Part shown: positions 5,756 through 29,270 of the stretch, piece after piece
How the letters are laid out: each line of letters begins with the position of its first letter
How positions within the stretch are numbered: position 1 is the first letter of the stretch
Assembly: GCA_027491735.1 (NCBI GenBank)
Contig: JAOZGP010000006.1
Span: 57,066-121,065 of the forward strand
From: Thermoproteota archaeon
GTDB lineage: Archaea; Korarchaeota; Korarchaeia; Korarchaeales; Korarchaeaceae
Direction of reading: 5' to 3'
DNA: 64,000 nt
Position numbers and translations under genes: made by a program
Notes under the pieces: generated by a model
Told to the model about the DNA's origin: nothing
What the model saw: only the letters and a program-made list of their open reading frames with translations
The model's database searches: none

Positions 5756-5786
5756 GTCCCCACCCTGCTCAGTTCTGAATCAGGAT

Positions 5787-5796: not shown

Positions 5797-5845
5797 TACA
5801 TGATGCCCTGTGGACCATCTGTTTCTATGTCTTGGATACCAATTC

Positions 5846-9906: not shown

Positions 9907-10834
9907 CACCAAACCTTAGCTTAACGAAACCCTTTCCGACTGTTTCGTTTCCTCCAATTTGGATGAATTTGCTGTCAAATGCTCTTAGCCCCTGAATAAC
10001 CCCATCAACAGTAGATAGCTCATCGATTTCTTTCCTCGGCTTTCCTACCGCTATGACTGAATACAGCAACGTGTCGGATGGTAAGTATTCCTCGTACCAC
10101 AGAGCCCCGGGCTCAACAGTTCCCCTCTCAGTGTTTATTTTAACTCTTGCAAGTATCTCGGTAGCAGTCTGAACGAGATTAGAGAAGACATCATTCGGAA
10201 TTATTACCACTCTGCTCTCATCGATTTCTATGGGAGAGATTTCTCCGATCACGCTCATAAGTTGTGAGAGATCCCTATTTTCTGCTTTCAAAACTACATC
10301 CTCTATTACCATGTTATTGTTATCTATGATTATCGAGGAGTTTTCGGATACCAAAGCTTTATCTACAATTGAACCGATGTTGTAATCAAGCTTCTTACCT
10401 ATAAGCTCTAAATCTCCCTTCAGCTTATTCAAAACTAATGGACAGGTTACATAAGCAAAAACTCCCTTCAAACTCCTAACCGGAAACAGCAGAACTTTGG
10501 CATCTCCGACGCTTATAGTCCCTGCATGCTCATGTGCTCGCTCTGTTGGAGGACCGAAAATAACGTTTGTTTTTGGCATTTCTTCTAATGCTTTTTCAAG
10601 CTCTTTCTTTTTATTATTGTCAGTCTCCTTTTCTATTTGCTCTCTAATCTGTTTTTTCTCAAAATCTGCATAAGCTCTCCTCAAAACACCCTTCAAGCTC
10701 TGCCCCCAGATCACTGGAAAGCCCGTGTGCCTTTCCCTCTGAATCGGCAAATCTATAACGCTTAACTCCGCTCCACTTCCGGCATGCACTGGGGTTACGC
10801 TATACAAACCCAAAATCAGGGCTTTCTCAAACAT
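9887..10834 (-). CDS. cmr4: Cmr4, target-RNA cleaving backbone subunit
   Basis: Cmr4 forms the repeated Cas7-type backbone of the III-B complex and cuts bound target RNA at 6-nt intervals with a conserved loop Asp. The N-terminus LGLYSVTPVHAGSGAELSV is diagnostic. It is followed by PVIWGQSLKGVLRRAY and the long thumb segment. The C-terminus carries the GGNETVGKGFVKLRF glycine-rich loop. The catalytic loop Asp is probably the one in ELSVIDLPIQRE, near residue 27. ATG 10834 lies eight bases after GAGGGTG and overlaps the hepT stop. It is separated from cmr3 by the three inserted HEPN/CARF genes. Confidence 0.93.
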   Translation of the reverse strand: MFEKALILGLYSVTPVHAGSGAELSVIDLPIQRERHTGFPVIWGQSLKGVLRRAYADFEKKQIREQIEKETDNNKKKELEKALEEMPKTNVIFGPPTERAHEHAGTISVGDAKVLLFPVRSLKGVFAYVTCPLVLNKLKGDLELIGKKLDYNIGSIVDKALVSENSSIIIDNNNMVIEDVVLKAENRDLSQLMSVIGEISPIEIDESRVVIIPNDVFSNLVQTATEILARVKINTERGTVEPGALWYEEYLPSDTLLYSVIAVGKPRKEIDELSTVDGVIQGLRAFDSKFIQIGGNETVGKGFVKLRFGDGNEKP

Positions 10835-11171
10835 TGCTATCACCCTCAGCCTCGTCTAGCAATCTCTCAAAAATTGGTTTTATTTTCGGAGTATCCTTTT
10901 TGACTGTCAACCAAACCACCTCCAAATCCACACCAAAATAAGCACGGATTAACTTATCCCTCATTCCTGCGATAGCTTTCCACAGAATTTCGGGATGTTT
11001 CTCTTTCAGCTCCTTAGAGATGTTTTTAACTGCCTCACTGATTATTTCTAAAGCCCTAACAACTGCATATTGGGTTTTTACATCATTCAAGAATTCGTTA
11101 AAAGTCATACCTTTAACAAAGTCTTCAACCTTCTCAATAGCATCCATAACATAATTTCTGTCGCTCCTCAT
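10827..11171 (-). CDS. hepT: HepT-family HEPN toxin with altered active site
   Basis: This is a 114-residue HEPN protein of the HepT (DUF86) family, the toxin half of MNT-HEPN toxin-antitoxin pairs. HepT proteins are recognised by an R-X4-H-X-Y RNase motif close to YFGVDLEVVW. Here the segment reads MRDKLIRAYFGVDLE, so Arg71 and Tyr78 are kept but the catalytic His is Arg76. On known HEPN chemistry this should be inactive or much weakened. It follows the frameshifted mntA; the unshifted mntA frame would end in an ATGA overlap with this ATG. It overlaps cmr4 by eight bases, so it is embedded in the Cmr operon. Either a defused toxin or a domesticated Cmr accessory is possible. Confidence 0.85.
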   Translation of the reverse strand: MRSDRNYVMDAIEKVEDFVKGMTFNEFLNDVKTQYAVVRALEIISEAVKNISKELKEKHPEILWKAIAGMRDKLIRAYFGVDLEVVWLTVKKDTPKIKPIFERLLDEAEGDSNV

Positions 11172-11457
11172 ATATAAACTACCTCTTTTAAGACGTTCTC
11201 TTTAATCCTTGTTTCAAAGTCTTCTTCATCACTAAATCCACTTTAACACCCAAAATTTCTGTTAAATAGTTCTCAAGCTCTACGAATTCCAGCAGTGTAG
11301 GGGTTTCTTCAAACTCGACTAAGATGTCGATGTCGCTTCCCTCTCTCTGCTCTCCTCTCACATAAGAGCCGAATAAACCCATTTCCTTAACTTTAAATTT
11401 TTTTAATATCTCTTTGTGTTTGGCTAAAGTTTCTTTTATTTCCTCTAGGTTTTTCAT
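11170..11457 (-). pseudogene. mntA: MNT nucleotidyltransferase antitoxin, frameshifted near its 3' end
   Basis: MNT-domain proteins AMPylate a tyrosine of HepT and so neutralise it. The catalytic motif is intact: [18 protein letters not shown] is the GS-X10-D-X-D signature. ATG 11457 overlaps the upstream CARF gene stop. The frame in the ORF track ends early at 11188 with [12 protein letters not shown]. One base earlier the other frame reads [16 protein letters not shown], the usual MNT C-terminus, and stops at TGA 11170 in an ATGA overlap with hepT. A single base therefore seems to be missing after the codons for VMKK. This could be a real lesion, a programmed shift or a sequencing error. 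Without correction the last helix is lost. Confidence 0.85.
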
Positions 11458-12683
11458 TTCAACACCTCCAATTTGGGAAATCTGCACGCCCTCAAATCCT
11501 TCTCAAAGAACTTTCCGTATATCTTTTCAACATAACCGAGCAGATATCTGTAAAACTTCTCTGCATTATCCCCTTTAGCCATGGCCACAAATCCATGTGC
11601 TAGTATCGATTTGTTTCTTTTCGTTAGCAGATCTCTCAGTTTTTCATCGTTTTTCATTTCGATTGCCAGATCTATGCCTAACTCAGAAAGTAACTCAAGT
11701 TTACTCATAACCCCCAATCTGAGCACAATCTTTCCATCTTTAAATTCGGCAAATTTCTCAAACTTCCTTAAGATCTCTCTGCGTTTGCTGTCATCTTCTG
11801 ATAGAACGATCGGATCGTCGTATCCTCTCTCTTTCAGCATTATCTGAGCTATAACCTCAGTTGCCCTGTAGAGTCTCGCAACCGCATCATCGTAAAGTCC
11901 TGTCTCTATCCTCCTTTTCGCATTTTCCATTAAATCGAGAAGCTTCATTTTATAGTACTCGACCGTGGCCTTCTCCTTACTCTTAAGTCTTCCGAGAAAT
12001 TCGATATTGGATTTTACGTGATTTTTATCGACCAAATCTACCGACTTCCAGGATTCTTTCAGCATTTCGAAAGCCTTAAAATGGTTAAACCTATCCCAAA
12101 GTTCGTAAGCTTTTAAAAATTTTATCAGTTCATCCTTATAATCTAAAGCTCTAAGGTTTTGGGCTTCAAGTATTGCGGCATCGAAGTTATACACGTTGAA
12201 CAGCTTTGCGATCTTTTCAATAGTTACCATATCTTTAAACTGATAAGGCTCGAAAATGGAAATTCTTTCAAGGCCTCTCCTAACGATTCCACCTTTTCTT
12301 TCCCCGGCGATACATATTAAGCGGGTGTTCACGAATATGGCAGCTGAAGCCATTGCAGAACTCATCGTTTTCGTGCCATACGTGTAGTTGATGAAAAGAT
12401 CTCGCTCTGAGTAATTCTTTAAAACTTCGAGCATAGTTCTAAAACATAAGTTAAAATCGTCGGGGTTGGAGATTTCTACCAATTTTGTATCTATATCGGT
12501 CTTCGATTTTATCAGATCGACCATTTCTTTCGTCTCTTTTGTGTAAAACAGAACGATCTTATCTGGCTTAATAGTTTTAACGATCTCATTTATGAAACCG
12601 TCGACCATTAATTCGAGAGTTTCTCTTCTTTCTTCTTCGGTTCTTCCTACGCCAGTTCCAGTCGTGGAAACTAAAACTCTCAT
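11454..12683 (-). CDS. CARF-HEPN CRISPR ancillary RNase (TIGR02710-like)
   Basis: This is a Csm6/Csx1-type accessory protein. An N-terminal CARF domain would sense cyclic oligoadenylate made by Cas10, and a C-terminal HEPN RNase would then degrade RNA. The N-terminus [20 protein letters not shown] is the TIGR02710-type CARF strand and turn, and [14 protein letters not shown] is the second CARF ligand loop. The HEPN motif is RNKSILAH, Arg356 to His363, an R-X6-H signature and therefore apparently active. ATG 12683 comes two bases after the cmr3 stop, and the TGA overlaps mntA. Cas10 here keeps its GGDD cyclase motif, so the pathway looks complete. Confidence 0.87.
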
Positions 12684-12685
12684 TT

Positions 12686-13729
12686 CTAAACCCCCAAGAA
12701 GCACAAACCGTAACCCAACCTCGTAAGTTCCCCGATCTTTAGATATGGCTGATCGAGATAAATCTCTCCATCGAATTCAACGAAGTAAATGGAACCGGGA
12801 GGAATTGCGTATCTCGTCGGCTTTGGTTTATTTTCTGCATAATCCCAGCCGCTGAAGGTTAGAGGCTTTCCTATAAGTGGATAAATCGCCTTTATTCCTA
12901 TTTTCAGCCTATCTTTGAGTTTATGCTCGATATCCCACATGCACTTATTCAATCTCTTAACAAGCGTGGGAGTTGCAACGTAGAGCTTAAATCTTCCACT
13001 TTCGTTTATATTTTCCAAAATTTCATCCCAAGCGTTCCTTAACTTCTCTATTGGATCTGAATTTTCGATTTCAATTCTTGCGAATCTGCTCTCCCCTCCA
13101 AGCCTTATCAGCCCATTTCTTAAATACTTCTTAACATTATCAGCCCCTTCACCAATCCATACGGAAATTTCAGCATTACCCCTAAGCCTGAGAAATCCCG
13201 CTTTATAGAAGAAATGCTCCTCCGTAACCTTCGCATCGCTCAACTTTATTCCCACCCTGCTCTCTTTAACGAACATATCGTCTCTGATTATTTCTTCGAG
13301 CTCTTCCTCCTCAATCTCTCCTTTGAGATAGTCCACGATGTTTTTGTAGCTAACAAAACCTCCAACGCTCTCGAAGTGTATGTGCTTGCCTTTGAACACG
13401 AACTGGCCATTTTGTAGCTGTAAAGGTTCAACAAGGAAGTATCCCTCTACACCTTTCGTCTTTACTATGTCGAGCGGTGTGGAGAAATATTCTTGCCCGT
13501 CGTAAAGAAAGCTACCTAATACCTGGAACTCGGGTTCGTCTTGCTTGTAACCTACCAATTTTTTAGCTTCATCGGAGAAACCCGAGCTGAAAAGTACTGC
13601 GCTCCTCAAAGCCCCCGCCACCGCTTGAGGTAAAGGCAGGGTGCTTCTCGCTAAATGTGACTCTCCAGCCGTAAAGGATTTCGATTCCCTAAACATCAGA
13701 ACGTCGTTAGGCTTCAGCAATATTCTCAT
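12686..13729 (-). CDS. cmr3: Cmr3, crRNA 5' handle-binding subunit
   Basis: Cmr3 is the Cas5-like RAMP subunit that binds the crRNA 5' handle and contacts Cas10. The start MRILLKPNDVLMFRESKSFTAG is highly characteristic of Cmr3. It is followed by LPLPQAVAGALRSAVL and a C-terminal IGELTRLGYGLCFLGV glycine-rich loop. The longer ORF start is rejected in favour of ATG 13729, which lies five bases beyond the cas10 TGA. Length of about 347 residues is normal. Confidence 0.93.
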   Translation of the reverse strand: MRILLKPNDVLMFRESKSFTAGESHLARSTLPLPQAVAGALRSAVLFSSGFSDEAKKLVGYKQDEPEFQVLGSFLYDGQEYFSTPLDIVKTKGVEGYFLVEPLQLQNGQFVFKGKHIHFESVGGFVSYKNIVDYLKGEIEEEELEEIIRDDMFVKESRVGIKLSDAKVTEEHFFYKAGFLRLRGNAEISVWIGEGADNVKKYLRNGLIRLGGESRFARIEIENSDPIEKLRNAWDEILENINESGRFKLYVATPTLVKRLNKCMWDIEHKLKDRLKIGIKAIYPLIGKPLTFSGWDYAENKPKPTRYAIPPGSIYFVEFDGEIYLDQPYLKIGELTRLGYGLCFLGV

Positions 13730-13734
13730 GCTAA

Positions 13735-16700
13735 TCACCCGTAACAATCTCTAAGGATTTTGAGCAGGATAAACAACCCCCTAACTTGCTTCCTCAAAAT
13801 TAGACCGTATAATTCCCCTCCTTTATTGCAATCGAGTTTGAACAATTCCGAAAGCCCGTCCACTGAAAGCTCATTTTTAGAAATCAGCTTGTTAATCTCT
13901 TCATTCAAACGGTTTAGCTTGACCTTGGACAGATCGATCAGACCTTCGAGATCGTTCGAACTCAGCGAAATTCTTACTCCTTTCGCGAGCTTTAGGATTT
14001 TTTCGGACAAATCTTCAGCTTTCTTTTTCTTGTTTTCTCCCTCGTAATGTCTTAACAGTTCAAACTTGAGGTAGGCTTTGATTGCGTTTTCATCTCTTGG
14101 TAGATTTTCAATGTTCTCAATAACATCGTAGATAAATCTTCCCGAAATCCTCGGCCTTTCTTCGCTTAAAATCAATTCCACGATTTCTTCAAGCTCCGGA
14201 ATTATATTCCAGTTAAAAACTACTTCGTAATAGCTACCGCCTCTCGTTAGGTAGCCTACGGCTACAGCATTCCTACCCATTCCTTTTGCCTTTCTTTCGA
14301 GCTCCCTAACCCTATCCAACGCATCGTATAGCGGATGCTTGTAGTGGACGATTAGGATTCCAGCGCTCATCGTCTTAGCGGGCAAAACGTTCCAGCCATC
14401 CCAATTATCGTTAAACTTCTTCTGAATTTCATTTGCACAAATCAAAGCTGAATCTATAGGCAGTAAGGCTAAAACGTCGTCTCCTCCTGCATAAATTAGC
14501 TCACCCCTATGATTTTTCACGATATCGGGAACTATGTTTATCGAGAAATGTGCGAGAGCTCTGCTTATTGCCGAGTGGGTTGCCGGCGTAATTAGCCTGT
14601 TCACTTTTCTGATTTTTTCTCTGAGTTTGTCAGGAAGTTGATCTACAACATTGGGATGCAGATAACAGTCAACTGTTCCCATCTCATCTCCAATCAGCAT
14701 TCTGCCCATGTTATCTCCGTCCATCATCAGGATTGCGTAGTATTTTTCTGGCTCACCATGTTCATCGTGTAGCTCTTTTACTATCCTCTTTGGTTCTTCA
14801 AGATCAATCTCGGAAACATCTATTCCAAAGTTCTCCTTTATATATTTTGCATTCCAATTCTCAATGTAAAGTAATTCAGGATTAACAAGATTGTTATCTC
14901 TTATGAGATATTTCAGCTTATTATGTCTTTTAAGAGTATTCACAAGCTTATTATAAAATTCTGATTCTTTGGCAAGTTTTAACCATTCGTTTTTCCTTAA
15001 AGCAACCTCTGAAACTGATTCGAACCCAGCCTCTATATCCCAATCTTTCTTTTCTTTGAACCACTCATGATAGAACCTCTTAGCCAAACAAACCGGACAG
15101 AGGTGTTCATTACTCTTGAACATCAACGGATTTTTGCTAGCTATTTCTAACCACAGAGCTTTCATTAGTGCGTAGTTTTTACCTCCAATTGCCTCGATTT
15201 CTCCGCAAAGAGAACACTTGTAGGCGTTAGAGCCTTCAAGTTTCTCGAATTTTCTCGACTCTATTGCAATGATTTCCTCCAAAAGTTCGAACATCAGAGA
15301 ATATAAGTCAAATATTCTTGCTGGATAGGCTCCAAAAGACCTCAGCAAATCCAGCCAGTCGAGGTACTTCTTCTCAACATTCTCAGGTAATCCGAGATTT
15401 TTAACGTAGCTCTCTAGCTTTTCGTAACTCTTTCTTATTCTTTCTCTCCAATCTTTCGCTTCGACCTCAAGTTCCTTTTTAGTGAAGGGAACTCTAAATA
15501 TCTCAAGAGTTATATCGAAGTAATTTTCGATTAAGTTGCGGTAGTAATTTTTCAAAGTCTCGAGATTTTTCAGCTCCTCTAAGACCTTTTCGTATTTTTC
15601 ATTTTCCTTGGATTTTTCCTTCAGCTCAATCAATTGGCTCTCAACATTTTTCAAGATTTCATCAATCGTTCTTTCCCAAGCGTAATCGAATAGTTCGATA
15701 ATTTCATTTAAAACGGCGTTCTTAACTTTATTTCTGAGATCGTTCAAATCATCATCTACGCCGATTATCGCCAAGAACTTGTTCGGGATGTTCGCAATTT
15801 TCAATTTTTTATTCAAATTTTTCACTTTAACGGCTTCCGGCACATCTTTGAATTTGTCTTCGAACTCTTTATCGAAAAACGGCTGACCTCTGAGATGTGG
15901 AAATATTACGGCATCCGGCCCATACTCTTCAATTATAGCTTTAATAGCTTGAAAAGTCAGATAGCTCAGCATGTGACTTCCAGCCCATAAATCTCTCTCC
16001 TTTCTCGCATTCTTTATGAAGTTTTGGACAGGCGTTAGCTTAAACATCAGTAAAGCCTGCTCATTCTTATTAATGGCTCCAAAGATGGCGGAAGTTGCAT
16101 CTGCATGGTCGAATAGCGTATGATCCGGACTTAACGTGTATGCAGTTAGGTTTAACACATCTTCAGCGATTCTTTCGCAGATTTCGTCGGATTCACAGAG
16201 TTCTTTTAATTTTTCAATCAACTTGATCTTCAAAAGCTCGGGATAAAACCTCCAGATTACGAAATACCTGTCCTTATCGTCGGCAGTAATTGAGATCAAT
16301 TCGTTAAAGGTCTCTTTTTCCGCTTCAAGAATGATCTTCAATATCCTTTCAAATTCACGTTGATATTCTTCGGATTTTTCGTCCTTTGGCAGTATATCTT
16401 TTAAATACTCATACTCCTTAATTTCGCTAGTTATCGGGTGTCTAAATACTGGTTCTCCAACAAAGATAAAATCTTCTCCGTGAATTCTGTAAAAAGTGGA
16501 TGAGAGCCTTTTGCCGTTTATTATTTCAAGATCAATTCTTTGAAGCGAGGATGCAGTTTGATCGGCTAAATGTATGTCAGGTATGCTTGGTAGTTCTCCG
16601 TAAACGTGATATAATTTTTTACTTTCATCATAAAAATATTTTTTAGCTTTTTCGACGTACTTTCTCCAATTCTTTAGTTCCTTTTTTATGTTGGCATCCT

Positions 16701-16833
16701 TGGGAATTGGAGGATCAGAATAAAAGCTAAAATTGCCCAGTAACTCCATTCTGCGTTCCACATGATCTTGTATTCTAATGACTTTGTCGGGAGGGTCGTG
16801 GAGAAAGGCTTTAATCTTATCGCTCCAATTCAT
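13735..16833 (-). CDS. cas10: Cas10 (Cmr2), HD and GGDD palm protein
   Basis: Cas10 is the large subunit of the type III-B complex. Target RNA activates single-strand DNase activity of its HD domain and cyclic oligoadenylate synthesis in its palm domain. The 1032-residue sequence has HD residues His12-Asp13 in AFLHDPPDK, a zinc-binding pair CSLC (540-543) and CPVC (579-582), a first palm with MMDGDNMG near 704, and the active-site AGGDDVLAL with GGDD at 783-786. Both activities therefore look intact. Its ATG overlaps the cmr1 stop. A+T-rich composition and Lys/Glu-rich helices match the rest of the effector train. Confidence 0.96.
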   Translation of the reverse strand: MNWSDKIKAFLHDPPDKVIRIQDHVERRMELLGNFSFYSDPPIPKDANIKKELKNWRKYVEKAKKYFYDESKKLYHVYGELPSIPDIHLADQTASSLQRIDLEIINGKRLSSTFYRIHGEDFIFVGEPVFRHPITSEIKEYEYLKDILPKDEKSEEYQREFERILKIILEAEKETFNELISITADDKDRYFVIWRFYPELLKIKLIEKLKELCESDEICERIAEDVLNLTAYTLSPDHTLFDHADATSAIFGAINKNEQALLMFKLTPVQNFIKNARKERDLWAGSHMLSYLTFQAIKAIIEEYGPDAVIFPHLRGQPFFDKEFEDKFKDVPEAVKVKNLNKKLKIANIPNKFLAIIGVDDDLNDLRNKVKNAVLNEIIELFDYAWERTIDEILKNVESQLIELKEKSKENEKYEKVLEELKNLETLKNYYRNLIENYFDITLEIFRVPFTKKELEVEAKDWRERIRKSYEKLESYVKNLGLPENVEKKYLDWLDLLRSFGAYPARIFDLYSLMFELLEEIIAIESRKFEKLEGSNAYKCSLCGEIEAIGGKNYALMKALWLEIASKNPLMFKSNEHLCPVCLAKRFYHEWFKEKKDWDIEAGFESVSEVALRKNEWLKLAKESEFYNKLVNTLKRHNKLKYLIRDNNLVNPELLYIENWNAKYIKENFGIDVSEIDLEEPKRIVKELHDEHGEPEKYYAILMMDGDNMGRMLIGDEMGTVDCYLHPNVVDQLPDKLREKIRKVNRLITPATHSAISRALAHFSINIVPDIVKNHRGELIYAGGDDVLALLPIDSALICANEIQKKFNDNWDGWNVLPAKTMSAGILIVHYKHPLYDALDRVRELERKAKGMGRNAVAVGYLTRGGSYYEVVFNWNIIPELEEIVELILSEERPRISGRFIYDVIENIENLPRDENAIKAYLKFELLRHYEGENKKKKAEDLSEKILKLAKGVRISLSSNDLEGLIDLSKVKLNRLNEEINKLISKNELSVDGLSELFKLDCNKGGELYGLILRKQVRGLFILLKILRDCYG

Positions 16834-17891
16834 GAAAACACCTCCAATTTTCCAAATACGATTGAATCCCTGAGATTTTCATTGAATTTCCCGATAATCG
16901 ACCAAACGACTAATTCATCGATATCGGAATCTGGATAAAACGGTTTAGTTTTGAACTTCACTATTTTAACGAAGAGTTCATTACTAATAGGAATCAAGCC
17001 AACTATCACAGGACTCGCCCTCCTTTCACTTCTAATCTTCGGCAATCTATTTCGAATACTTTCTACACCCTTACCACCCAAGTTTATTGGTAAGCCAAAA
17101 ACGATTCTTTCGGGTTTATCTATTTCGTTCCGTCTGAACTTTAGATATTCCCGCTGGAATTGAACCAAAGCTTGAATTGGGTCTCCTCTTTTTGGATCCC
17201 ATAGGGTCACTACAGAAGTGTTCGGACTTAAAACGGGATAGCTAACATTGCTTACGTTGAGCTTGGATTTATTAAGAGTCTGCCCGACTAATTCTACTGC
17301 TCGCTCTATGGAATCTTTCAGCTCACCACGATTTTTAAATTCAGTTTTGAGATCAAGATCGTCAAGCACTTCCAAATCCCCACCGCAAAATCTAATGCTT
17401 CCAGCACCTCTACGAGATCTGAACCCAATACTGCCTAAGGTTACGAGGGTCCAAAACGAGGCTAAGCCAATCCTAAACGATTTCTCATCTAAAGCTTCGA
17501 TTTTCAGGTGGAACTTCGTTCCCGCTGGATAATATTCATCAAACTGATTTTTCCTTGCAAGCAAGTTCACAGAAAACCAAATGTATCTAAGCTGATTGGA
17601 GGGAGATCTTTTATCTATTACCCCCTTTTTAAATAACACTCTTCTCTTTTCACCAACAATCTTGGAAATTTCAACGATCACCCTACTCCTCTGCTTTGTG
17701 CTTCCGAAGACAAACTCTTCGGCTCTTCTCAATCCAACAACATCATTGCCGAAGTAATTTCCAGCTAAAGCCCTGAACCACCATCTCATCAAGCCCTTTA
17801 CAGATGATGCTCTGATCTCAGCTTTAGTCTGATCAGCACCCCTCATGAAAATAGGAGTTATTGCTTCAAGCTCGAATTCAGCCTTGAACAT
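16830..17891 (-). CDS. cmr1: Cmr1, type III-B RAMP subunit
   Basis: Cmr1 caps the 3' end of the crRNA in the Cmr complex and helps bind target RNA. The diagnostic N-terminus is visible: EAITPIFMRGADQTKAEIRASS followed by VKGLMRWWFRALAG, and FVFGSTKQRSRV. The RAMP GFRSRRGAGSIRF loop is in the middle. ATG 17891 is preferred over the GTG at 17900 because AGGTG lies eight bases upstream. The gene overlaps the end of cas8a by a few bases or abuts it, so type III-B genes follow type I-A genes with no break. Confidence 0.93.
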   Translation of the reverse strand: MFKAEFELEAITPIFMRGADQTKAEIRASSVKGLMRWWFRALAGNYFGNDVVGLRRAEEFVFGSTKQRSRVIVEISKIVGEKRRVLFKKGVIDKRSPSNQLRYIWFSVNLLARKNQFDEYYPAGTKFHLKIEALDEKSFRIGLASFWTLVTLGSIGFRSRRGAGSIRFCGGDLEVLDDLDLKTEFKNRGELKDSIERAVELVGQTLNKSKLNVSNVSYPVLSPNTSVVTLWDPKRGDPIQALVQFQREYLKFRRNEIDKPERIVFGLPINLGGKGVESIRNRLPKIRSERRASPVIVGLIPISNELFVKIVKFKTKPFYPDSDIDELVVWSIIGKFNENLRDSIVFGKLEVFS

Positions 17892-17892
17892 T

Positions 17893-19098
17893 TTAAACAC
17901 CTTTAAACATTTTAATAACCCTCATATATTCTTTACTCCTTCTTTTCTCGTTTGGTTTTGTGCTGTTTTCAAGCTTTCTGTATGCGTTGTTAATCTCCCT
18001 CAAAAACTCGTACCAACCATCAGCATTACCAAGCACGACGAAGCGGTAAAGTCCATGGATAGCTTTTATGATGTTGCTCGCTTCATCGTATCTATCCACG
18101 TTTTTCAAAGCATCGAAAATAACCCCATCCGGCTTCAGAATCTCCGACAGATTCTTTAAGAACATCTCGGGATCTCTGAAGTGATTTCTAACGATTTCGT
18201 AGAACTCCTGATGTTCTCTATAGATCGTTATCGGTATCTGTTCATAGACCTTATAGGTTTGCCCTTCAGGTGCAATCTTGAAAAGAATCGTCGAAATCTT
18301 GTCTAAATTCTCCTTTTCCATAAGCCTTCTGATTTCAACGTTCAAATACACCTCAAGCAAAATCATCTCGTTCAGTGTCGTTTTACTCAGCACTTCGTTC
18401 AAAATTTTTATTGTTCCGTTCTTCGTTCTGAACAATTTCTTAATAAGTTCTTTGTCTTCAATGTTATTCAGCATGCTCTCTATTTCCTCAGGAGAGAAAG
18501 TCAGGAAGAAATAGTATTGCTGGTTATGCTGTCTTGCGGAAGTTACGAAAGAGGAGTATAAGCCAAGCAGGAAGATTAGCAGTATCTCCTTGGACGTGTA
18601 AATCGTTATCTGCTGTGACGTGTAACCGCTTTCCAGCGAGGATATGCCCGTATATCTGTCAACTTTAAAAAGCTGAGGAGCAGCAATCGGTTTCTTTTTT
18701 CCATTTGCATCAAACATCTCTTTCTCATCGACAATCATATCCTTTCTTTTGAACTCAATTCCCAGCTTTATCGTGTCTTTCGTAACTATCAGCTGATCTG
18801 CATTCGGTTTGAGTTTGGAGATTAGATCGTAGTAAGTCTTTTTACTTTTTTCCGAAATTTTATATGCTTCGAAAATCGTAGCGTTGATGGTATCATTTCC
18901 TGACATTACAACTCTCAGGTTGTTCACTCCCTCATCTTCGAGATTCTTCATCGCGGTTGCGAGGAAGTCGTTCGGTAAATCTATTGAATGACCGTCAAAC
19001 CTCGCTTGAGAAAACTGGGTTGAAAAGAGCAAACCTTCATACAAGATGTTACTGAGAAAGGAGAGGTCTCTCGGCAAAGTTAAGATCACCTTGACCAT
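17893..19098 (-). CDS. cas8a: Cas8a-type large subunit of type I-A Cascade
   Basis: This 401-residue gene occupies the place of the type I-A large subunit, directly after csa5-cas7-cas5. Large subunits recognise the PAM and recruit Cas3. The N-terminus ILTLPRDLSFLSNILYEGLLF resembles Cas8a2/Csa4 proteins. There is no zinc finger or nuclease motif that I can see, and Cas8a is poorly conserved, so the call leans on position and length. ATG 19098 overlaps the end of cas5 (GGATGGTCAAGGTGA). A more exotic large subunit is possible, but no other candidate for the role exists in the operon. Confidence 0.72.
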   Translation of the reverse strand: MVKVILTLPRDLSFLSNILYEGLLFSTQFSQARFDGHSIDLPNDFLATAMKNLEDEGVNNLRVVMSGNDTINATIFEAYKISEKSKKTYYDLISKLKPNADQLIVTKDTIKLGIEFKRKDMIVDEKEMFDANGKKKPIAAPQLFKVDRYTGISSLESGYTSQQITIYTSKEILLIFLLGLYSSFVTSARQHNQQYYFFLTFSPEEIESMLNNIEDKELIKKLFRTKNGTIKILNEVLSKTTLNEMILLEVYLNVEIRRLMEKENLDKISTILFKIAPEGQTYKVYEQIPITIYREHQEFYEIVRNHFRDPEMFLKNLSEILKPDGVIFDALKNVDRYDEASNIIKAIHGLYRFVVLGNADGWYEFLREINNAYRKLENSTKPNEKRRSKEYMRVIKMFKGV

Positions 19099-19883
19099 CC
19101 GACCACCACCTCTCCATCGAATTTGTAGGCAACTTTTGTCTCAATCCAACAATGATATTCTTCCTTACTTATGTTCAAAATCGGAACTTTGAAAGGTAGC
19201 AGATTCTTTCCTTCGATGTAATCCTTTACGGGATCGCTAAAGTTGAAAGGATTTATGTAAACTTCATACACCCAATTTCTCGATGTTTCCTCTTTGATAA
19301 TTTCAACGTTGCTCGCTGGAAAGCTGTAAGTCGTTTTTATCTTACCATCAATCTTTTTCGGTTCAAACGATTCAACCTCTGTAACTGAAGTTATGCTTTC
19401 CTTAGATCCGAGCCTGTGAATCTTCCAGAAAATATCATCCTCTATTTCTATTCTCTTTCCGTTAAATTCGATGTTATCATCTTTGAACACCAAAAACCAC
19501 CTGAGCTTTGGAGAATCCTGAAAGCTTGCCAGTATGGTTTTACCTCTCGCCGGAGAATCGAAAGATTTGGCAAGATTTATCGGATTCGGATAGAGCACTC
19601 CAGAAGTTATCTTTACGGCTATAATTCTGTTCAGATCCTCATACTTTATCGGTTTGCAGTTAACTGGCTTAACTCCTATTGCCAGCAGATTCTCGCTCAG
19701 CTTTGCGATGATCTTCCTACCTTCCTCTTCTCCTGTTTTCTTCTCCTTAGCAATGACTTCAGCTAAAGCACCCAAAAAAGTCGTTGGTGGAGGATAGTAA
19801 AAGGATGGAGAAGTCTTTGACAATCCAACTATTCTCGCCTGAAATCCCCAAACGAATTCTGTATCGACTATAAAGCCGATCAT
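19086..19883 (-). CDS. cas5: Cas5a, type I-A Cascade subunit
   Basis: Cas5 is a RAMP protein that holds the crRNA 5' handle in Cascade. The 265-residue protein begins GFIVDTEFVWGFQARIVGLSKTSPSFYYPPPTTFLGALAEV, the typical Cas5 first strand and Pro-rich helix start. ATG 19883 overlaps the cas7 TGA, and the 3' end overlaps cas8a. Order csa5-cas7-cas5-cas8a is the normal type I-A Cascade block. Confidence 0.9.
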   Translation of the reverse strand: MIGFIVDTEFVWGFQARIVGLSKTSPSFYYPPPTTFLGALAEVIAKEKKTGEEEGRKIIAKLSENLLAIGVKPVNCKPIKYEDLNRIIAVKITSGVLYPNPINLAKSFDSPARGKTILASFQDSPKLRWFLVFKDDNIEFNGKRIEIEDDIFWKIHRLGSKESITSVTEVESFEPKKIDGKIKTTYSFPASNVEIIKEETSRNWVYEVYINPFNFSDPVKDYIEGKNLLPFKVPILNISKEEYHCWIETKVAYKFDGEVVVGWSR

Positions 19884-20947
19884 ATCCTCCTCTCAGCCTC
19901 TTCGATCGCACTCACAACAACTTCTTCGAATTCTCCATCATCTGGGTAGACGAAGAGCTTCGTGCCGTAGTTCACCTTCTGCATCTTCTTTTCAGCCTTC
20001 TCGATGTAGCTCTTTGCAAATGGGCTTGGAACAGTCCACACGTCATCACTGACAGCTATAGCTAAAGACTCCCATTCAACTACTGGTAGAAATCTCGTCT
20101 TCTTTGCTCCAAACAGAAATTCGATTAGGAACTTTTGTAAAGCGTCGAGAGTCGCTTCTATCCTCTTCTTCCTGTCGTTAACCACTTCTTCTCCGGCTCT
20201 ATCGTAAACAAAAGTTGCTCTTCCTATGTATCTTGTATCCAGATCGAAGCTAAAGGTATAGACTGCTGAAGATAGCTCAACGTAGTATATCATCTGTCCA
20301 CGAGCTTCTTCTTCTCCACGAACAAATGGAGTTCCTAAGGCATATCTTGAATGCAACTGTGGTTCAATTACCACGTTTTCAAGAGCCTCCTTCGTCGGAA
20401 TCATGTAGCCAGTGTAAAAGTTGGAGGTTCTTTTGATGTTACTAAAGATAGGTCTAGCTGAAATTTGATTTCGTTGTTTCTCTTTTGATGCTATTCCTTT
20501 CGACTCCAGAATGTCAATATCACTAATACCATTTTCAAACTGTCTTTCACTTTGAGTTTCTGGAGCGTGCAAGAAACCTCCAACATCCTCTATGAAGCAG
20601 TTCCTAATAATAAAAGCCTCTAACTCGAAATCTGAGGATACTCTACCAGTAGATTTTAATTTGTCTCTAAATTGTGATACTAATGTCGCCAAATTTGTGC
20701 TCTTTAGAAATATTCCCTTTTCACACAGCTTACAAACTGGCAATCCATTTTCCTTAGCCTCTTCAGCCAAGACCTCCTGAAATCCATGTGCAATTGATTC
20801 ACCGCTTATCGCTGGAGCAAAATAAGTAGCATAGGTTTCGGGAACTATCACAGGCACTCTTCTGTGCTTTACGTAATTTCCAACACTTTCCGTCATGTTT
20901 AAAGCCTCAACGTTGATCAAAACCCTTCCTCTAATTGAAACGAACAT
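19880..20947 (-). CDS. cas7: Cas7a (Csa2), Cascade backbone subunit
   Basis: Cas7/Csa2 polymerises along the crRNA spacer as the Cascade backbone. The protein opens MFVSIRGRVLINVEALNMTESVGNYVKHRRVPV, a clear Csa2 N-terminus, and contains a CKLCEKG motif near residue 85. ATG 20947 is chosen because AGGAGGG lies seven bases upstream. The ORF track starts two codons earlier, at an ATG within the csa5 stop overlap. The gene is coupled to csa5 and cas5. Confidence 0.94.
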   Translation of the reverse strand: MFVSIRGRVLINVEALNMTESVGNYVKHRRVPVIVPETYATYFAPAISGESIAHGFQEVLAEEAKENGLPVCKLCEKGIFLKSTNLATLVSQFRDKLKSTGRVSSDFELEAFIIRNCFIEDVGGFLHAPETQSERQFENGISDIDILESKGIASKEKQRNQISARPIFSNIKRTSNFYTGYMIPTKEALENVVIEPQLHSRYALGTPFVRGEEEARGQMIYYVELSSAVYTFSFDLDTRYIGRATFVYDRAGEEVVNDRKKRIEATLDALQKFLIEFLFGAKKTRFLPVVEWESLAIAVSDDVWTVPSPFAKSYIEKAEKKMQKVNYGTKLFVYPDDGEFEEVVVSAIEEAERRI

Positions 20948-20949
20948 AT

Positions 20950-21303
20950 TCATCCCTCCTTCATGAGAGAAGCTGAAATTGAGAGTGCTTTGGCTGAAAT
21001 AAGTGCCGTAATCTCTCTCAGCTTCTTCTTATCCTTTGAATCCAACTTTGCTAACTCCTGAATGCTCCTCTCAACTCTATCGAAGTTGATTTGGTCTGCC
21101 TCCTCCTTAGCTCTGGGGTTTTCCCACCTTTGGCTGTTGATCAGCGAGTGGAGGTCCCTCAAGGCCTCCCTCACGTAATAGACAGCCAGATCCTTGGAGG
21201 GCGCGTAGCCAAGCTTATCGACGTATGTGTAATTACCCTCTTCCGCTATAAGAATGGCTAGAACCTTCGCCAAATCCCTATCGAAGCTCATAAAATGACC
21301 CAC
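20950..21303 (-). CDS. csa5: Csa5 (Cas11a), type I-A small subunit
   Basis: Csa5 is the small helical subunit of archaeal type I-A Cascade. The sequence contains the family core, AILIAEEGNYTYVDKLGYAPSKDLAVYYVREALRDLHSLI. It is the first gene of the train. GTG 21303 and ATG 21291 are both possible starts. A TATA box about 27 bases upstream of the GTG implies a leaderless or very short-leader transcript, so either could be used. Its 3' end is the start-stop junction with cas7. Confidence 0.88.
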   Translation of the reverse strand: MGHFMSFDRDLAKVLAILIAEEGNYTYVDKLGYAPSKDLAVYYVREALRDLHSLINSQRWENPRAKEEADQINFDRVERSIQELAKLDSKDKKKLREITALISAKALSISASLMKEG

Positions 21304-21849: not shown

Positions 21850-22590
21850 TCAGGGCAGGGCCTCGACGTAGTCCCTCAGGCTCTTCAGGATCTTCTCATG
21901 CTTCCTCTCGTCGTCAGCTATGCTGTCTATCAGCAGGGTCAGTATCCTGTGAGGGAGGAGCTCCTTGATCTTGTCAAGTCCCTTCGTGTGGAGCAGCCTC
22001 TCCTCCTCCAGGAGCTTGTTCAGGAGCTCCATGTCAGGCACATCTATCCTCATCTCCCCTCCTCTCTCAACGACAGACATCAGCATGAACATTATGTCGG
22101 CGTGTTTCAGACAGTCCCTGGCTATCATCCTGATGAGCATCCTCAGAGGCTGATTTCTGATCTTGGAGGCGATCCTCAGGAACTCCTCGGCTGACCTGTG
22201 CTCAACCTCGAACCTCCTCCTCAGGAGGTTGATCAGCTTTGCAGCCCTCTCCTCCTCCATTATCATAAGATCTCTTCTCTCTCCACTCACCACAGACCCT
22301 CTCTCAATCAGGGAGATTGCAGAGAGAGCTAGATCGTAAAGGGCAGGAAGGTCTATCTTTCCACCCTTGTCAACGGCCAGGTCCGTGAACCTCCTCACAA
22401 GATCCATCGCACCACTCCTCAGGAGGAGCTCAGCCAAATCCCCAGCTCTCTTACCCTCCAAGTACAGGGTTATGGCTGAAGGAGTTAGCCCCAAGATCTC
22501 CGCAGCCTTCTTCCTGCTGAAACCGTGGCGCTCAATGAGATCCCTTGCTATGAGGGCCCTCAAACCTGGAATGACCTCCTCTGGCTTCAC
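21850..22590 (-). CDS. HTH regulator with C-terminal ferritin-like domain
   Basis: This gene is divergent from the feo operon and is likely its regulator. Near its N-terminus is a helix-turn-helix: GLRALIARDLIERHGFSRKKAAEILGLTPSAITLYLEGKRA. The C-terminal 100 residues look like a four-helix ferritin or rubrerythrin-type bundle. Candidate metal ligands are in FEVEHRSAEEFLRIA, CLKHADIMFM and LLEEERLLHTKGL, with DDERKHEKIL at the end. A domain that can bind iron fused to a DNA-binding domain suggests direct iron sensing. The ORF opens at 22692. GTG 22590 is preferred because VKPEEVIPGLRAL matches the N-terminus of related HTH regulators, but GTG 22650 is also possible. Confidence 0.72.
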   Translation of the reverse strand: MKPEEVIPGLRALIARDLIERHGFSRKKAAEILGLTPSAITLYLEGKRAGDLAELLLRSGAMDLVRRFTDLAVDKGGKIDLPALYDLALSAISLIERGSVVSGERRDLMIMEEERAAKLINLLRRRFEVEHRSAEEFLRIASKIRNQPLRMLIRMIARDCLKHADIMFMLMSVVERGGEMRIDVPDMELLNKLLEEERLLHTKGLDKIKELLPHRILTLLIDSIADDERKHEKILKSLRDYVEALP

Positions 22591-22654
22591 AAGGTATTTA
22601 TCAGTGTTACCTTTTTTGTTTTTCCCTGAAAGGAATTCGAGCCATCGCACGAAA

Positions 22655-22680
22655 ATTACAGAGTTAATTAACAGAGTAAT
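22655..22680. promoter_or_regulatory. Candidate operator in the feo intergenic region
   Basis: A 26-bp element has ATTAC and GTAAT end arms around a TTAATTAA core, and also contains ACAGAGTTA and ACAGAGTAA as a short direct repeat. It sits immediately upstream of the feoA TATA box and within the start region of the divergent HTH-ferritin regulator. That is where an autoregulating operator would be expected. Confidence 0.5.
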
Positions 22681-22681
22681 T

Positions 22682-22690
22682 TTTATATAC
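22682..22690 (+). promoter_or_regulatory. TATA box of the feo operon
   Basis: TTTTTATATAC lies about 30 bases upstream of the GTG of the first feoA. TATATA reads as a TATA box on both strands, so it could also serve the divergent regulator. Confidence 0.55.
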
Positions 22691-22712
22691 AAGCTGCCTT
22701 GCTGAGGAGCTG

Positions 22713-22976
22713 GTGAGGCGCATGAGAAAACCTCTCAGCGAACTGGAGGTTGGACAGACCGGCGTGGTGGTCGACATATCCGGTGGATCTCCAAAATTCA
22801 GAAGGAGAGTGCTGGACATGGGGATCACTAAGGGAAGGAGGGTGAAGGTGGTCAGAAAGGCACCGCTCAGGGATCCCGTGGAGTTCGAGGTGTTGGGGTA
22901 CAACATATCCCTCAGGAGGGATGAGGCCAGGCACATCCTGGTTGAGGTCGAGGAGTATGAGGGTGGGAAGAGGTGA
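22713..22976 (+). CDS. feoA: FeoA domain protein 1
   Basis: FeoA is a small SH3-like cytosolic partner of the FeoB iron transporter. This copy has MRKPLSELEVGQTGVVVDISGG, then RRRVLDMGITKGRRVKVVRKAPLRDPVEFEVLGYNISLRRDEARHI, the complete FeoA fold. The start is GTG 22713 or ATG 22722, with GAGGAG just upstream. The stop overlaps the next feoA. Confidence 0.93.
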   Translation: MRRMRKPLSELEVGQTGVVVDISGGSPKFRRRVLDMGITKGRRVKVVRKAPLRDPVEFEVLGYNISLRRDEARHILVEVEEYEGGKR

Positions 22977-23197
22977 TGCCGCTCTCCTTTCTCGGCGAGG
23001 GAGAGTCCGGAACTGTGGTCTGGGTGAGAGCTGGAAGAGGGCTCACCGGAAAGCTCCTCTCGATGGGGATATCACCGGGCGCAAGGGTCAGGGTCCTGAA
23101 GTCAGGTCCGGGACCTCTCCTGATAGAGATCGGACAGACAAGGATGGCGATCAGCAGGGGGGTTGCGATGAAGGTGGTCGTTAGACGGGAGGGATGA
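22976..23197 (+). CDS. feoA: FeoA domain protein 2
   Basis: This is a second FeoA-like SH3 domain protein of 74 residues. MPLSFLGEGESGTVVWVRAGRGLTGKLLSMGISPGARVRVLKSG shows the family order of strand, MGI turn and strand. It is quite different from the first copy, so the two probably play separate roles on FeoB. It overlaps the upstream feoA stop and the downstream feoB start. Tandem feoA genes are common in thermophilic archaea. Confidence 0.92.
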   Translation: MPLSFLGEGESGTVVWVRAGRGLTGKLLSMGISPGARVRVLKSGPGPLLIEIGQTRMAISRGVAMKVVVRREG

Positions 23198-25227
23198 GCG
23201 TGGCGGATCCGAAGATGATCAAGGTGGCCCTCGCAGGGAATCCGAATGTCGGCAAGTCCGTCATATTCAATAACCTGACAGGAGCTCACCAGCACGTTGG
23301 GAACTGGCCAGGGAAAACGATAGATAAGAAGGAGGGATTCCACAGGTTCGACGACAGGACCCTCTACATAATGGACCTTCCAGGGACCTACAGCCTGACC
23401 GCAATGTCTGTCGAGGAGGTCATAGCAAGGGACTACATAATATACGAGAGGCCGGACGTGGTGGTGAACGTGGTCGACGCCATGAACCTGGAGAGGAACC
23501 TGTACCTGACGTTGCAGCTCAAGGAGCTTGGAGCGAACGTGGTGATCGCCCTCAACAAGATGGATCTTATCAAGAAGGCGGGGATGAGGATAGACGTCAG
23601 GAAGCTCGAGGAGGAGCTTGGAGTTCCTGTGGTTCCAACAATCGCTCCGAAGAGGAGAGGAATGAGGGAGCTCGTTGCAGAGGTTGTGAGATCGGCTGAG
23701 AAGCATAGGAGCTCAAGGAGCTCCGAGGAGCCTCTCTCCTACGGAGAGGCTGAGAAGTTCATAAAGGAACTCCAAGAAATTGCCTCATCGATTGAGGGGG
23801 TGAGGAAGCTCTTCAATACGAGGTGGGTTGTGATCAAGATCCTCGAGGGAGATTCGGACGTGATGAGGAAGCTCTCTGAGGTGGAAGGAGGCGAGGAGCT
23901 GGTGAGGGCAGGAGAGGAGATTAGGAAGAGGATGAGCGGGGAGCTCGGAGATCCGGAGGTCGTCATCGCCGACGCTAGGTATGCGAGAATAAGGAAGGTG
24001 ATCTCCAAGGCTGTTGGTGTTCTCAAAAGGCTTCCTGCATCAGATCTACTGGACAAAGTTCTCCTCGACAGGATATTTGGCATACCGATCTTCCTGGTGA
24101 TCCTGTGGTGGTGGTTCCAGATGGCCTTCATAGGATCCACTCCCTTCTGCGACCTCCTTGGGGATGGCTTTGCTATGCTGGGTGAGGCTCTCTCAGGCCT
24201 GACGGGGAACACAGTGATGGACTACTTTCTCTTCGGAGAGTACGGGCTGATTCAGGGGTTGGGAGCAGTCCTGAGCTTCGTTCCTCTGATAATGTTCCTC
24301 TACTTCATACTATCTCTCCTCGAGGACTCGGGCTACATGGCTAGAGTGGCCTTCGTGATGGACAGGATCATGAGGAAGGTTGGGCTCTCTGGCAGGGCGA
24401 TAGTGCCCATGATAATGGGGTTCGGGTGCAACGTCCCTGCTGTCTACGCTACGAGGGTCATACCGGATGAGAAGGACAGGTTGATAGCGATATTGACGAA
24501 TCCGCTCATGCTCTGTGGAGCAAGGCTTGTCTTCTTCTCAGCAATAGCAGCTGCCTTCTTCGGGATCTATGCTGGGGACGTCCTCCTCTCCCTGTACCTC
24601 CTCGGGATCTTCCTGGCGTTCATGGTCGCACTGGCTTTGAGGAGAACAGTCTTCAGGGAGGCGGTCTCCCCGTTCATCCTGGAGTTTCCAGCATACCAGA
24701 AGCCGTCGTTCAGGGTGGCATTCGTCAGGATGTGGGACAGGGGATCCATGTACCTCAGGAAGGCTCTTGGGGTTATCCTGATAGGCCTCCTGATAATAGG
24801 AGCTCTCACTGTGACGGATGCAAGCACATTCACATTCACCACGGATCCCGAGAATAGCTTGATTGCGTCACTTGGCAGGAGTCTTCAGCCGATTTTCTCA
24901 CCTCTTCACTGGAGTTGGAGGCTGGTGGTAGCCATGGTCTTCGGGTTCGTTGCTAAGGAGATAGTTCTAGGAGCATCTGCCATGCTCTATGGGGTTGGTG
25001 AGGAGGAGATAGCCTCCAGGATGGCCGAGATGTACAGCCCGGTGGACATGTATGGGTACATGACCTTCATCCTCATCTACATGCCCTGCATAGTGACAGT
25101 CGCCGCCATAAGGCAGGAGACGGGGTCGTGGAAGTGGACCTCGTTCTCAGTGGTCTACGGCCTCATCCTTGCGTACCTTGTGAACTTGGTCGTCGTGACT
25201 CTCGGTCACCTGATCCTCGGGTGGTGA
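23194..25227 (+). CDS. feoB: FeoB ferrous iron transporter
   Basis: FeoB imports Fe(II) across the cytoplasmic membrane. The N-terminal G domain has G1 GNPNVGKS at residues 15-22, a switch I HVGNWPGKTI, G3 DLPGTYSL and G4 NKMD. A helical spacer of about 100 residues follows. The membrane half has the two repeated Gate segments, with MIMGFGCNVPAVYATR in the first and FVAKEIVLGASAMLYG in the second, separated by hydrophobic helices. At 677 residues it is full length. ATG 23194 overlaps the feoA stop. It is likely controlled by the divergent HTH-ferritin regulator. Confidence 0.97.
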   Translation: MSVADPKMIKVALAGNPNVGKSVIFNNLTGAHQHVGNWPGKTIDKKEGFHRFDDRTLYIMDLPGTYSLTAMSVEEVIARDYIIYERPDVVVNVVDAMNLERNLYLTLQLKELGANVVIALNKMDLIKKAGMRIDVRKLEEELGVPVVPTIAPKRRGMRELVAEVVRSAEKHRSSRSSEEPLSYGEAEKFIKELQEIASSIEGVRKLFNTRWVVIKILEGDSDVMRKLSEVEGGEELVRAGEEIRKRMSGELGDPEVVIADARYARIRKVISKAVGVLKRLPASDLLDKVLLDRIFGIPIFLVILWWWFQMAFIGSTPFCDLLGDGFAMLGEALSGLTGNTVMDYFLFGEYGLIQGLGAVLSFVPLIMFLYFILSLLEDSGYMARVAFVMDRIMRKVGLSGRAIVPMIMGFGCNVPAVYATRVIPDEKDRLIAILTNPLMLCGARLVFFSAIAAAFFGIYAGDVLLSLYLLGIFLAFMVALALRRTVFREAVSPFILEFPAYQKPSFRVAFVRMWDRGSMYLRKALGVILIGLLIIGALTVTDASTFTFTTDPENSLIASLGRSLQPIFSPLHWSWRLVVAMVFGFVAKEIVLGASAMLYGVGEEEIASRMAEMYSPVDMYGYMTFILIYMPCIVTVAAIRQETGSWKWTSFSVVYGLILAYLVNLVVVTLGHLILGW

Positions 25228-25233
25228 GAATAC

Positions 25234-25758
25234 ATGGAGCGGGGACATAGTGAGTGGATTGGACGTGAGCCCCACAGGTGGGCCTATACCCTGGCAGCGT
25301 TGCTGTCTGTGCTGTACGTGATCTACGGGGCTCTTCAGCTCTACAACGGCATTGCCGACTGGTGGTTTCCCTGGATGGGAGGAGGAGCACAACTTGGTTT
25401 CGGGCTCGGCGAGTCCTATGTGCCGAACGTATTCCCCGATCCCTTCTCAGGACTTGCACTGGTGGTGATAGGAGCGATCTTCGCCAGAGCATTCCTCCTC
25501 TTTGTGAGAAGGGAGGAGTCCTCGAGGGGGTTCCTCTTCGTCGGGTGGATCCTGGCCCTGATGATGTTGATCCTGAACCTGACGGTGCTCCTGGCCGACA
25601 TCCTCGACACATACTATCCACTCATCTGGGGAGGAGAGGTGGAGATGTGGACCCTTGGAACGGATCCCTGGGGGATATCCCCCCATCTGGTGCTCGGAGC
25701 CATAGCAGCGCTCATTTATCCAGAGATCAGGGACGTCCTGAGGCAGCTCGTCACCTGA
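25234..25758 (+). CDS. Four-helix membrane protein in feo operon
   Basis: This 174-residue protein has about four membrane helices, near 17-39, 71-91, 99-122 and 150-163. The first two are joined by a loop with aromatic and Gly-rich sequence DWWFPWMGGGAQLGFG. I do not recognise the family. It starts six bases after feoB and shares its direction and composition, so it is probably a co-transcribed accessory membrane protein of iron uptake. No cysteine or histidine cluster for metal binding is evident. Confidence 0.6.
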   Translation: MERGHSEWIGREPHRWAYTLAALLSVLYVIYGALQLYNGIADWWFPWMGGGAQLGFGLGESYVPNVFPDPFSGLALVVIGAIFARAFLLFVRREESSRGFLFVGWILALMMLILNLTVLLADILDTYYPLIWGGEVEMWTLGTDPWGISPHLVLGAIAALIYPEIRDVLRQLVT

Positions 25759-28316: not shown

Positions 28317-29270
28317 ATGAATAACATCCTAGGTTGCCTTGAGAAGGTTCTAACATTGCTCGTGGAGAAGAATCTCAAGGAGATATCACCGACAATCAAC
28401 TATCTGCATGGACCGGATTTTCACGAGGCCTTAGGACTAAGTCGTGATGAATGTCCCGATCTGAGTGAGGTTCTCGAGACCCTTGTGGAGGAGGGAGTGC
28501 TCAGGAAGCACAAGGTGGGGAGCATTCCATCCTGCCCGAGTTGCGGTTCCTTCAAGCTCATGGTTAGGCTCACGTGTCCTGTATGTGGTTCCATCAACAT
28601 AAGAAAAGTTGATTCAATAACGCATCTGGCTTGTGGCTTCACCGCTCCCTCTGATAAGTTCGAATACGGGGATCTGCTGAGATGTCCTAGCTGCGGGAAG
28701 ACCCTTAAGGCTTTGGGCGTTGATTACGGCAGGTTCACTGATGCCATATTATGCGATGATTGTGGCAAGCTCTCCTTCTCCCCCAGGGTGATCTTTGAGT
28801 GTTCCGACTGCGGAACGGTATCAACTGAGAAGGAGCTATCTCTCAAACCTGTGTACAGATATGAAGTTGTAAGTGAGAGACTGCTTGCCAGAAGGCCTAT
28901 AGCGGCAGATGTGGTGAGGCTGCTGAGGGAAAGGGGGTTTGATGTAAAAGCCCCGAAGGAGGTCATCGGTCTCTCAGGCGTGGTTCATAGGTTCTCCCTA
29001 GCCGCTCGCAGAGGTGGAAAAGAACACATCATTGATATAGTTCGCTCTAATGAAGCTGTTGATGAATATAGAATCTTGGCGCTTTTCGGCAAGATGATGG
29101 ACTCCTCGCTGAAGAAGGCCATCCTGATAGCAATACCTAAGGCCAGCGAGAACGCTAAAACTCTCGCCGGAAGCCTCGGTATAAGAGTTATAGAGGCATC
29201 ATGCCTGGATGAGGTGATTGACAAAATAACGGACATTATGGAGGAGCTCGAAGAGAAAGAAGATCTTTAG
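28317..29270 (+). CDS. TackOD1 zinc-ribbon protein with nuclease-like C-terminal domain
   Basis: A 317-residue protein. Residues 1-65 look helical and winged-helix-like. Three zinc ribbons follow: CPSCG/CPVCG, a TackOD1-type ITHLACGF then CPSCGKTLKALGVDYGRF, and CDDCG/CSDCG. The last 120 residues are an alpha/beta fold (GGKEHIIDIVRSNEAVDEYRILALFGKM, then KKAILIAIPKA and LGIRVIEA) resembling the restriction-endonuclease fold, but lacking a convincing D-ExK site. TackOD1 domains are proposed output modules of TACK signalling systems. A TATA-like CTTTTTAAG lies about 40 bases upstream. The next gene is a frameshifted paralogue. Confidence 0.75.
   Translation: MNNILGCLEKVLTLLVEKNLKEISPTINYLHGPDFHEALGLSRDECPDLSEVLETLVEEGVLRKHKVGSIPSCPSCGSFKLMVRLTCPVCGSINIRKVDSITHLACGFTAPSDKFEYGDLLRCPSCGKTLKALGVDYGRFTDAILCDDCGKLSFSPRVIFECSDCGTVSTEKELSLKPVYRYEVVSERLLARRPIAADVVRLLRERGFDVKAPKEVIGLSGVVHRFSLAARRGGKEHIIDIVRSNEAVDEYRILALFGKMMDSSLKKAILIAIPKASENAKTLAGSLGIRVIEASCLDEVIDKITDIMEELEEKEDL

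Follow-up and report, generated by a model that had tools for sequence, protein, structure and literature searches.

The gene that lies divergent from feoA-feoA-feoB in the window (the whole 64,000-nucleotide stretch of DNA analysed here) may encode a local, one-component iron-responsive repressor that carries a ferritin-like (rubrerythrin-type) sensor and covers the BRE of the import promoter. We put the probability of this reading at about 0.6. According to the proposed mechanism, the HTH domain would bind, as a dimer, a 13-bp site of the form TTNACNNNGTNAA over the BRE, directly upstream of the feoA-feoA-feoB TATA box. The C-terminal bundle would bind iron, probably in a diiron-type carboxylate/histidine site composed of E130, D159/H163, E197, H201, E228 and H231. 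With ample iron, the metal-loaded dimer would bind and block recruitment of TFB and TBP, lowering Feo import; under iron scarcity, the metal site would empty and feo would be transcribed. Regulation of the adjacent importer through this operator is very likely, and a role as a metal-binding sensor is highly plausible. Iron is the probable physiological signal, since the ligand set and the neighbours (Feo, FTR1) point to it as the metal. The simplest scheme, repression by the metal-bound form, is modestly favoured. The domain make-up, the invariant ligands, the recurrent divergence from iron importers and the operator with its fixed position are read directly from the sequences.

A preliminary description of this DNA had proposed an HTH-ferritin-like fusion in an open reading frame at 21850-22692 on the minus strand, divergent from feoA-feoA-feoB and containing the motifs FEVEHRSAEEF, CLKHAD, LLEEERLLH and DDERKHEK. 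The frame and all four motifs are present in the letters, and the divergent operon is confirmed by two matches to PF04023 and one to TIGR00437. The start codon, however, is corrected. Initiation at TTG 22692, giving 280 aa, was rejected: the homologues contain nothing equivalent to the first 34 codons of that frame, and the extension would run across the operator and the TATA region of feoA. Because the homologues begin at GTG 22590 and the longer form would cover the operator, GTG 22590 is the likely start, and the regulator is most likely a protein of 246 aa rather than 280 aa. With this start, the intergenic region between the regulator and feoA is 122 bp. The locus is organised as follows:

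21850..22590, minus strand: HTH-ferritin-like fusion regulator, 246 aa, corrected start GTG 22590, from which homologues of 229-262 aa align
22441..22572, minus strand: N-terminal HTH_3/XRE-type DNA-binding domain (PF01381), residues ~7-50, with model helices at 3-20, 26-33 and 37-44
21859..22239, minus strand: C-terminal rubrerythrin-superfamily helical bundle, residues ~118-244 (PF02915 and profile matches)
22652..22683, no strand: predicted operator, the near-palindrome AAAATTACAGAGTTAATTAACAGAGTAATTTT, with two abutting TTNACNNNGTNAA-type sites at 22655-22667 and 22668-22680
22682..22689, plus strand: TATA box TTTATATA of the feoA promoter, 1 bp after the second operator site
22713..22976, plus strand: first feoA (PF04023, 6.7e-25)
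22973..23197, plus strand: second feoA (PF04023, 1.1e-19)
23194..25227, plus strand: feoB (TIGR00437, 2.1e-189)
25234..25758, plus strand: small membrane protein, last gene of the feo operon, which also follows the orthologous feoB at loci L069, L070, L071 and L161

Elsewhere in the window, a long run of CRISPR-associated-looking genes (Cas5/Cas7/Cas10-like by eye) extends from 2012 to 21303 and ends next to the regulator, and a separate ORF at 38736-39236 looks rubrerythrin-type by eye.

The assignment of a ferritin-like fold to the C-terminal domain has good evidence by sequence and weak evidence by Foldseek. The main alignment consists of 45 rows, 41 of them fused proteins. In the window protein, PF02915 (Rubrerythrin) gives a sub-threshold match (E = 0.0022-0.003; 18.8 bits versus a cut-off of 22.8) that is full-length, residues 156-272 of the 280-aa ORF aligning to profile positions 2-136/137. 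The same profile matches 35 of the 45 aligned members at E ≤ 0.01, with the best value (4.4e-7) in a standalone relative and E = 2.9e-4 in a full-length relative from Ca. Benthortus lauensis; standalone 160-aa relatives exceed its curated cut-off (30.2 and 30.8 bits versus 22.8). Against the PDB, a profile of the 45 members finds a bacterioferritin (1.2e-6), then designed diiron four-helix proteins (7.9e-5) and mini-bacterioferritin (0.0016), with a weaker match to symerythrin (0.018), while a phmmer search with the single window protein returned chance matches only. The only NCBIfam match, seen for 8 of the 45 members, is a weak one of encapsulin-cargo ferritin-like type, and none of the family models searched names this fusion family. 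Standalone 160-aa ferritin-like proteins at L012, L013, L026 and L030 carry IAxDSxKHA-type and DExRH motifs and a conserved C-terminal tail (W-K-FHG).

The N-terminal domain matches PF01381 (HTH_3) with E = 2.2e-4 and 21.6 bits, slightly under the 23-bit cut-off; 30 of the 45 aligned members reach E ≤ 0.01 (best 4.1e-7). A linker with helices connects it to the bundle. The proposed distinctness from Fur, DtxR and IdeR holds at the level of domains, as the window protein has no match to the FUR domain PF01475 in a Pfam scan at E ≤ 1, nor to the DtxR-type PF01325 and PF02742. Two of the 45 members reach PF01325 weakly (best 0.0015), and these also match several other HTH models. No rubredoxin-like FeS4 domain is matched in the window protein, whose chain ends after helix 4.

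An AlphaFold2 model built from the 45 rows (mean pLDDT 91.2, pTM 0.55) places the four helices of the bundle in the right order. Foldseek searches with both models of the predicted monomer yield weak matches (E 0.4 or worse, TM ≤ 0.47, rmsd 8-22 Å) and none at E < 0.001; the monomer model therefore departs from a standard closed bundle. The HTH and ferritin-like architecture first proposed is upheld by profile matches and ligand conservation, whereas structure prediction supports the helix order without a close structural match. The rmsd is ~11-12 Å to Pyrococcus furiosus rubrerythrin (1nnq, 9qg1) and sulerythrin (7ppt, 7o9c); for ferritins and Desulfovibrio vulgaris rubrerythrin it is mostly 19-21 Å. 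P. furiosus rubrerythrin and sulerythrin are reported to be domain-swapped dimers (PMC3317640), and the contrast in rmsd hints that the bundle perhaps closes between two subunits. More speculatively, the metal site itself could lie between subunits, as in domain-swapped rubrerythrins, with each subunit contributing a half-set from helices 1-2 (E130, D159, H163) and another from helices 3-4 (E197, H201, E228, H231), which would make the protein a new class of metalloregulator; we regard this arrangement as doubtful. If it is true, iron would assemble the DNA-binding dimer, coupling the iron level directly to operator affinity.

The putative ligands fall on all four helices of the bundle:

22201..22203, minus strand: E130, helix-1 ligand position, invariant in 45 of 45 rows
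22102..22116, minus strand: D159-C160-L161-K162-H163, helix-2 motif of the IAxDSxRHA type, D159 and H163 in 41/41 fused proteins
21988..22002, minus strand: E197 and H201, helix 3, E197 in 41/41 and residue 201 variable
21898..21912, minus strand: D227-E228-R229-K230-H231, helix-4 DExKH motif, D227, E228, K230 and H231 in 41/41

Thus E130, D159, H163, E197, D227, E228, K230 and H231 are identical in every one of the 41 fused proteins. Five of the six canonical diiron ligand positions (E, ExxH, E and ExxH on four helices) are invariant. The exception is residue 160, the canonical helix-2 Glu, which is Ser in 31 and Cys in 10 of the 41; ExxH has become (S/C)xxH, with an invariant Asp one residue earlier. 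Residue 201 is His in 23 of the fused proteins, Glu in 9 and Met in 9. His occurs there only in the importer-linked clade, with Glu or Met elsewhere, and H201 is a candidate for tuning of the metal response.

Approximately 47 full-length HTH-ferritin-like fusions were found in archaea, in a search covering one genome collection together with whole genomes related to the window genome and the Benthortus genome. One full-length homologue is 43% identical to the window protein and three (L160-L162) are 63-65% identical; judged by these figures, conservation of the fusion is far more than chance would produce. In a maximum-likelihood tree, the window protein belongs to a 23-member clade (support 100/99) with L160-L162 as its nearest relatives.

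Within this clade, feoA(-feoB) is the divergent neighbour of 14 fusions and another importer that of 8, counts in which loci are not independent, as the members of sub-clades are close relatives. The feo-linked set comprises the window, L160-L166, L169, L170 and L172-L175; the context of L160 was checked by hand, and for L165 and L166 feoB is visible and the simple ORF list used contained no feoA frame. FeoB of L161 is 75% identical to that of the window and FeoBs of the other sub-clades only ~35-39%, so the association is a repeated one, involving distinct feo loci. The other HTH-ferritin fusions beside feoB that the preliminary description proposed to look for therefore exist, at several distinct feo loci. 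At one further locus, L168, the divergent gene encodes an FTR1 iron permease (PF03239, 1e-65). A PhnD-type ABC importer is divergent in seven loci (L167, L171 and L176-L180; at L178 the contig carries only its first codons), and a ZnuA/MntC-type metal ABC operon also lies beside L177-L180 (at L177, PF01297 2.4e-78 and PF00950 5.9e-76). The PhnD-type system may be an uncharacterised metal importer.

The Benthortus fusion (L031) is the only clade member without an adjacent importer; its other flank is common to L163-L165 and L169, and FeoB was looked for in its draft genome and not found. A zinc-ribbon protein is encoded beside it (L031:6358-7302), where others have feo. It has a look-alike in the window at 28317-29270, 6 kb from the window fusion, which may be a coincidence. 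In other branches of the family, L187-L199 among them, the fusions have no metal genes next to them. The branch of L187-L199 and L204, mostly on long or complete contigs, has Met as residue 201 and an unchanging set of neighbours unrelated to metal.

The intergenic region of the window contains a palindrome in which 13 of 16 arm positions pair. Since the TATA box starts 1 bp past the second operator site, the operator covers the BRE. The 150 bp upstream of the fusions were scanned for the 13-bp TTNACNNNGTNAA with at least 7 of its 8 fixed bases, giving 46 sites in 20 loci (2.9 expected). By comparison with dinucleotide shuffles, these divide into 26 sites in 12 feo loci (1.6 expected) and 20 sites in 8 transporter loci (1.3 expected). 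Because the motif was lengthened from a 12-mer to a 13-mer once the intergenic regions had been seen, these tests are only partly blind; an excess of this size, however, cannot come from that change. In 21 of 22 loci, the window included, the site ends 0-4 bp before a TATA-like box of the transporter, against 0.33 expected. A half-unit, TTAACNNNGTAA, is found directly upstream of the Benthortus fusion. Among nine loci outside the 23-member clade, L183 and L184 alone have an exact site and one further locus a 7-of-8 match; three members scanned from the L187-L199-type branch have none. A second, related palindrome, ATAACNNCGTTAT (ATAAC-NNC-GTTAT), occurs just downstream of the importer TATA box in L167, L168, L171 and L176-L180, and the box is flanked on both sides by palindromes in at least L167, L168, L171, L176 and L177. 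Its position beyond the TATA box would suit a repressor.

Exact TTHACNNNGTDAA 13-mers are rare, with 2-26 per genome. The regulon looks local because the other sites that were inspected, in 20 regions, are nearly all intragenic and none precedes a recognisable iron gene; a wider regulon was rejected on these grounds. Nor does the fusion substitute for DtxR throughout, as a DtxR-family protein is retained in the window genome (G000), where it is encoded elsewhere, and in most homologue genomes; wholesale replacement was likewise rejected. The preliminary description envisaged a distinct archaeal iron-control system. Importer linkage and a conserved operator favour that idea in a reduced form, that of a local switch operating beside DtxR. 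In the related genome G014 (L069), the divergent place next to an orthologous feoA-feoA-feoB-membrane protein operon (FeoB 66% identical) is taken by a DtxR-type regulator, and the pair represents a natural regulator swap at one promoter.

The same regulator and operator could work with the opposite sign, the iron-free protein activating feo by helping TFB/TBP, or the metal-free form acting as the repressor. In archaea, activators too can occupy DNA directly upstream of the BRE, and the operator is immediately upstream of the TATA box in almost all loci; however, the overlap with the BRE and the second palindrome past the TATA box in the ABC-linked clade fit occlusion better, making a reversed sign rather unlikely. 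A change of signal rather than sign is less probable still. Rubrerythrin-type diiron sites react with O2 and H2O2, and the conserved ligand set would accommodate a PerR-like redox or peroxide sensor in which such a reaction shuts off ferrous import under oxidative stress. Yet the canonical helix-2 Glu is missing and the neighbours are importers, with no recurring peroxidase or oxidative-stress gene seen in the neighbourhoods, so that this explanation is improbable.

A sensor of another metal, for instance Mn(II) or Zn(II), that controls various importers would reduce the Feo linkage to cross-talk. The ZnuA-type operon beside L177-L180 and the uncharacterised PhnD-type systems agree with this proposal, but Feo in 14 of the 23 clade members and FTR1 in one are both iron systems and the ligands are of the diiron-carboxylate type; we give it only a small chance. 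Least credible is a chance juxtaposition, in which an XRE-type regulator carries a degenerate helical domain unrelated to metal and its neighbours simply vary. Although the Pfam matches of the window protein alone are sub-threshold, this is already contradicted by the 41/41 ligands, the recurrent importers and the common operator. An iron-responsive repressor at the importer promoter remains the preferred reading.

The regulator and its transporter may have travelled together. The window feo module (22713-25758) is nearer to that of a distant archaeon, L161:7616-10632 (FeoB 75%, membrane protein 61%), than to that of its own relatives (FeoB 66%), and the regulator is kept in L161 and absent beside feo in the window's own kin. 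Because of this affinity, joint horizontal transfer of regulator and transporter is suggested. Contig misbinning may be an alternative source of the affinity; as a bin check, a tRNA-thiolation-type gene on the contig has best matches spread over unrelated groups. In two relatives, at L071 (8200-10219) and L072 (6910-8914), the orthologous feoB appears as two ORFs with a similar break after the G domain, which may be a true split or a frameshift.

The iron regulators known in prokaryotes detect Fe(II) with a Fur or DtxR fold, or use Fe-S clusters or haem; to our knowledge, the nearest analogue of ferritin-type sensing is found in the hemerythrin-type ligase sensors of eukaryotes. The window protein resembles DtxR, IdeR and MntR in joining an HTH to a helical metal-binding domain in one component and, if the model is right, in acting like an Fe-dependent repressor. 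In contrast to them, it lacks PF01325 and PF02742, its HTH is of the XRE/HTH_3 type, and its sensor fold and ligands are ferritin-like. It shares a superfamily, by profile, and a Glu/His ligand pattern with rubrerythrin, sulerythrin and COG1633-type proteins, but differs in its HTH fusion, the absent rubredoxin domain, the change of helix-2 ExxH to (D)(S/C)xxH and its position next to importers. Standalone archaeal XRE/HTH_3 regulators (~145 aa), common in related archaea, belong to the same HTH subfamily without a ferritin-like domain. In eukaryotes, FBXL5 and BRUTUS read iron status with a diiron helical bundle, as described for BRUTUS (PMC12022348). These sensors have a hemerythrin fold and a ubiquitin ligase output and do not bind DNA; no homology to them is claimed.

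Open-access papers searched on such fusions, on ferritin-like or diiron regulators and on archaeal iron regulators yielded no description of this family. One-component metalloregulators are a known kind; a ferritin-like sensor in that role appears to be new, and the family is probably a previously undescribed iron switch. With this operator in hand, synthetic DNA and a single recombinant protein suffice for a direct test of the model. If the model is true, a ferritin/rubrerythrin-type sensor on a DNA-binding protein would bring in a new iron-sensing chemistry and would explain the control of Feo and FTR1 uptake in several archaeal groups.
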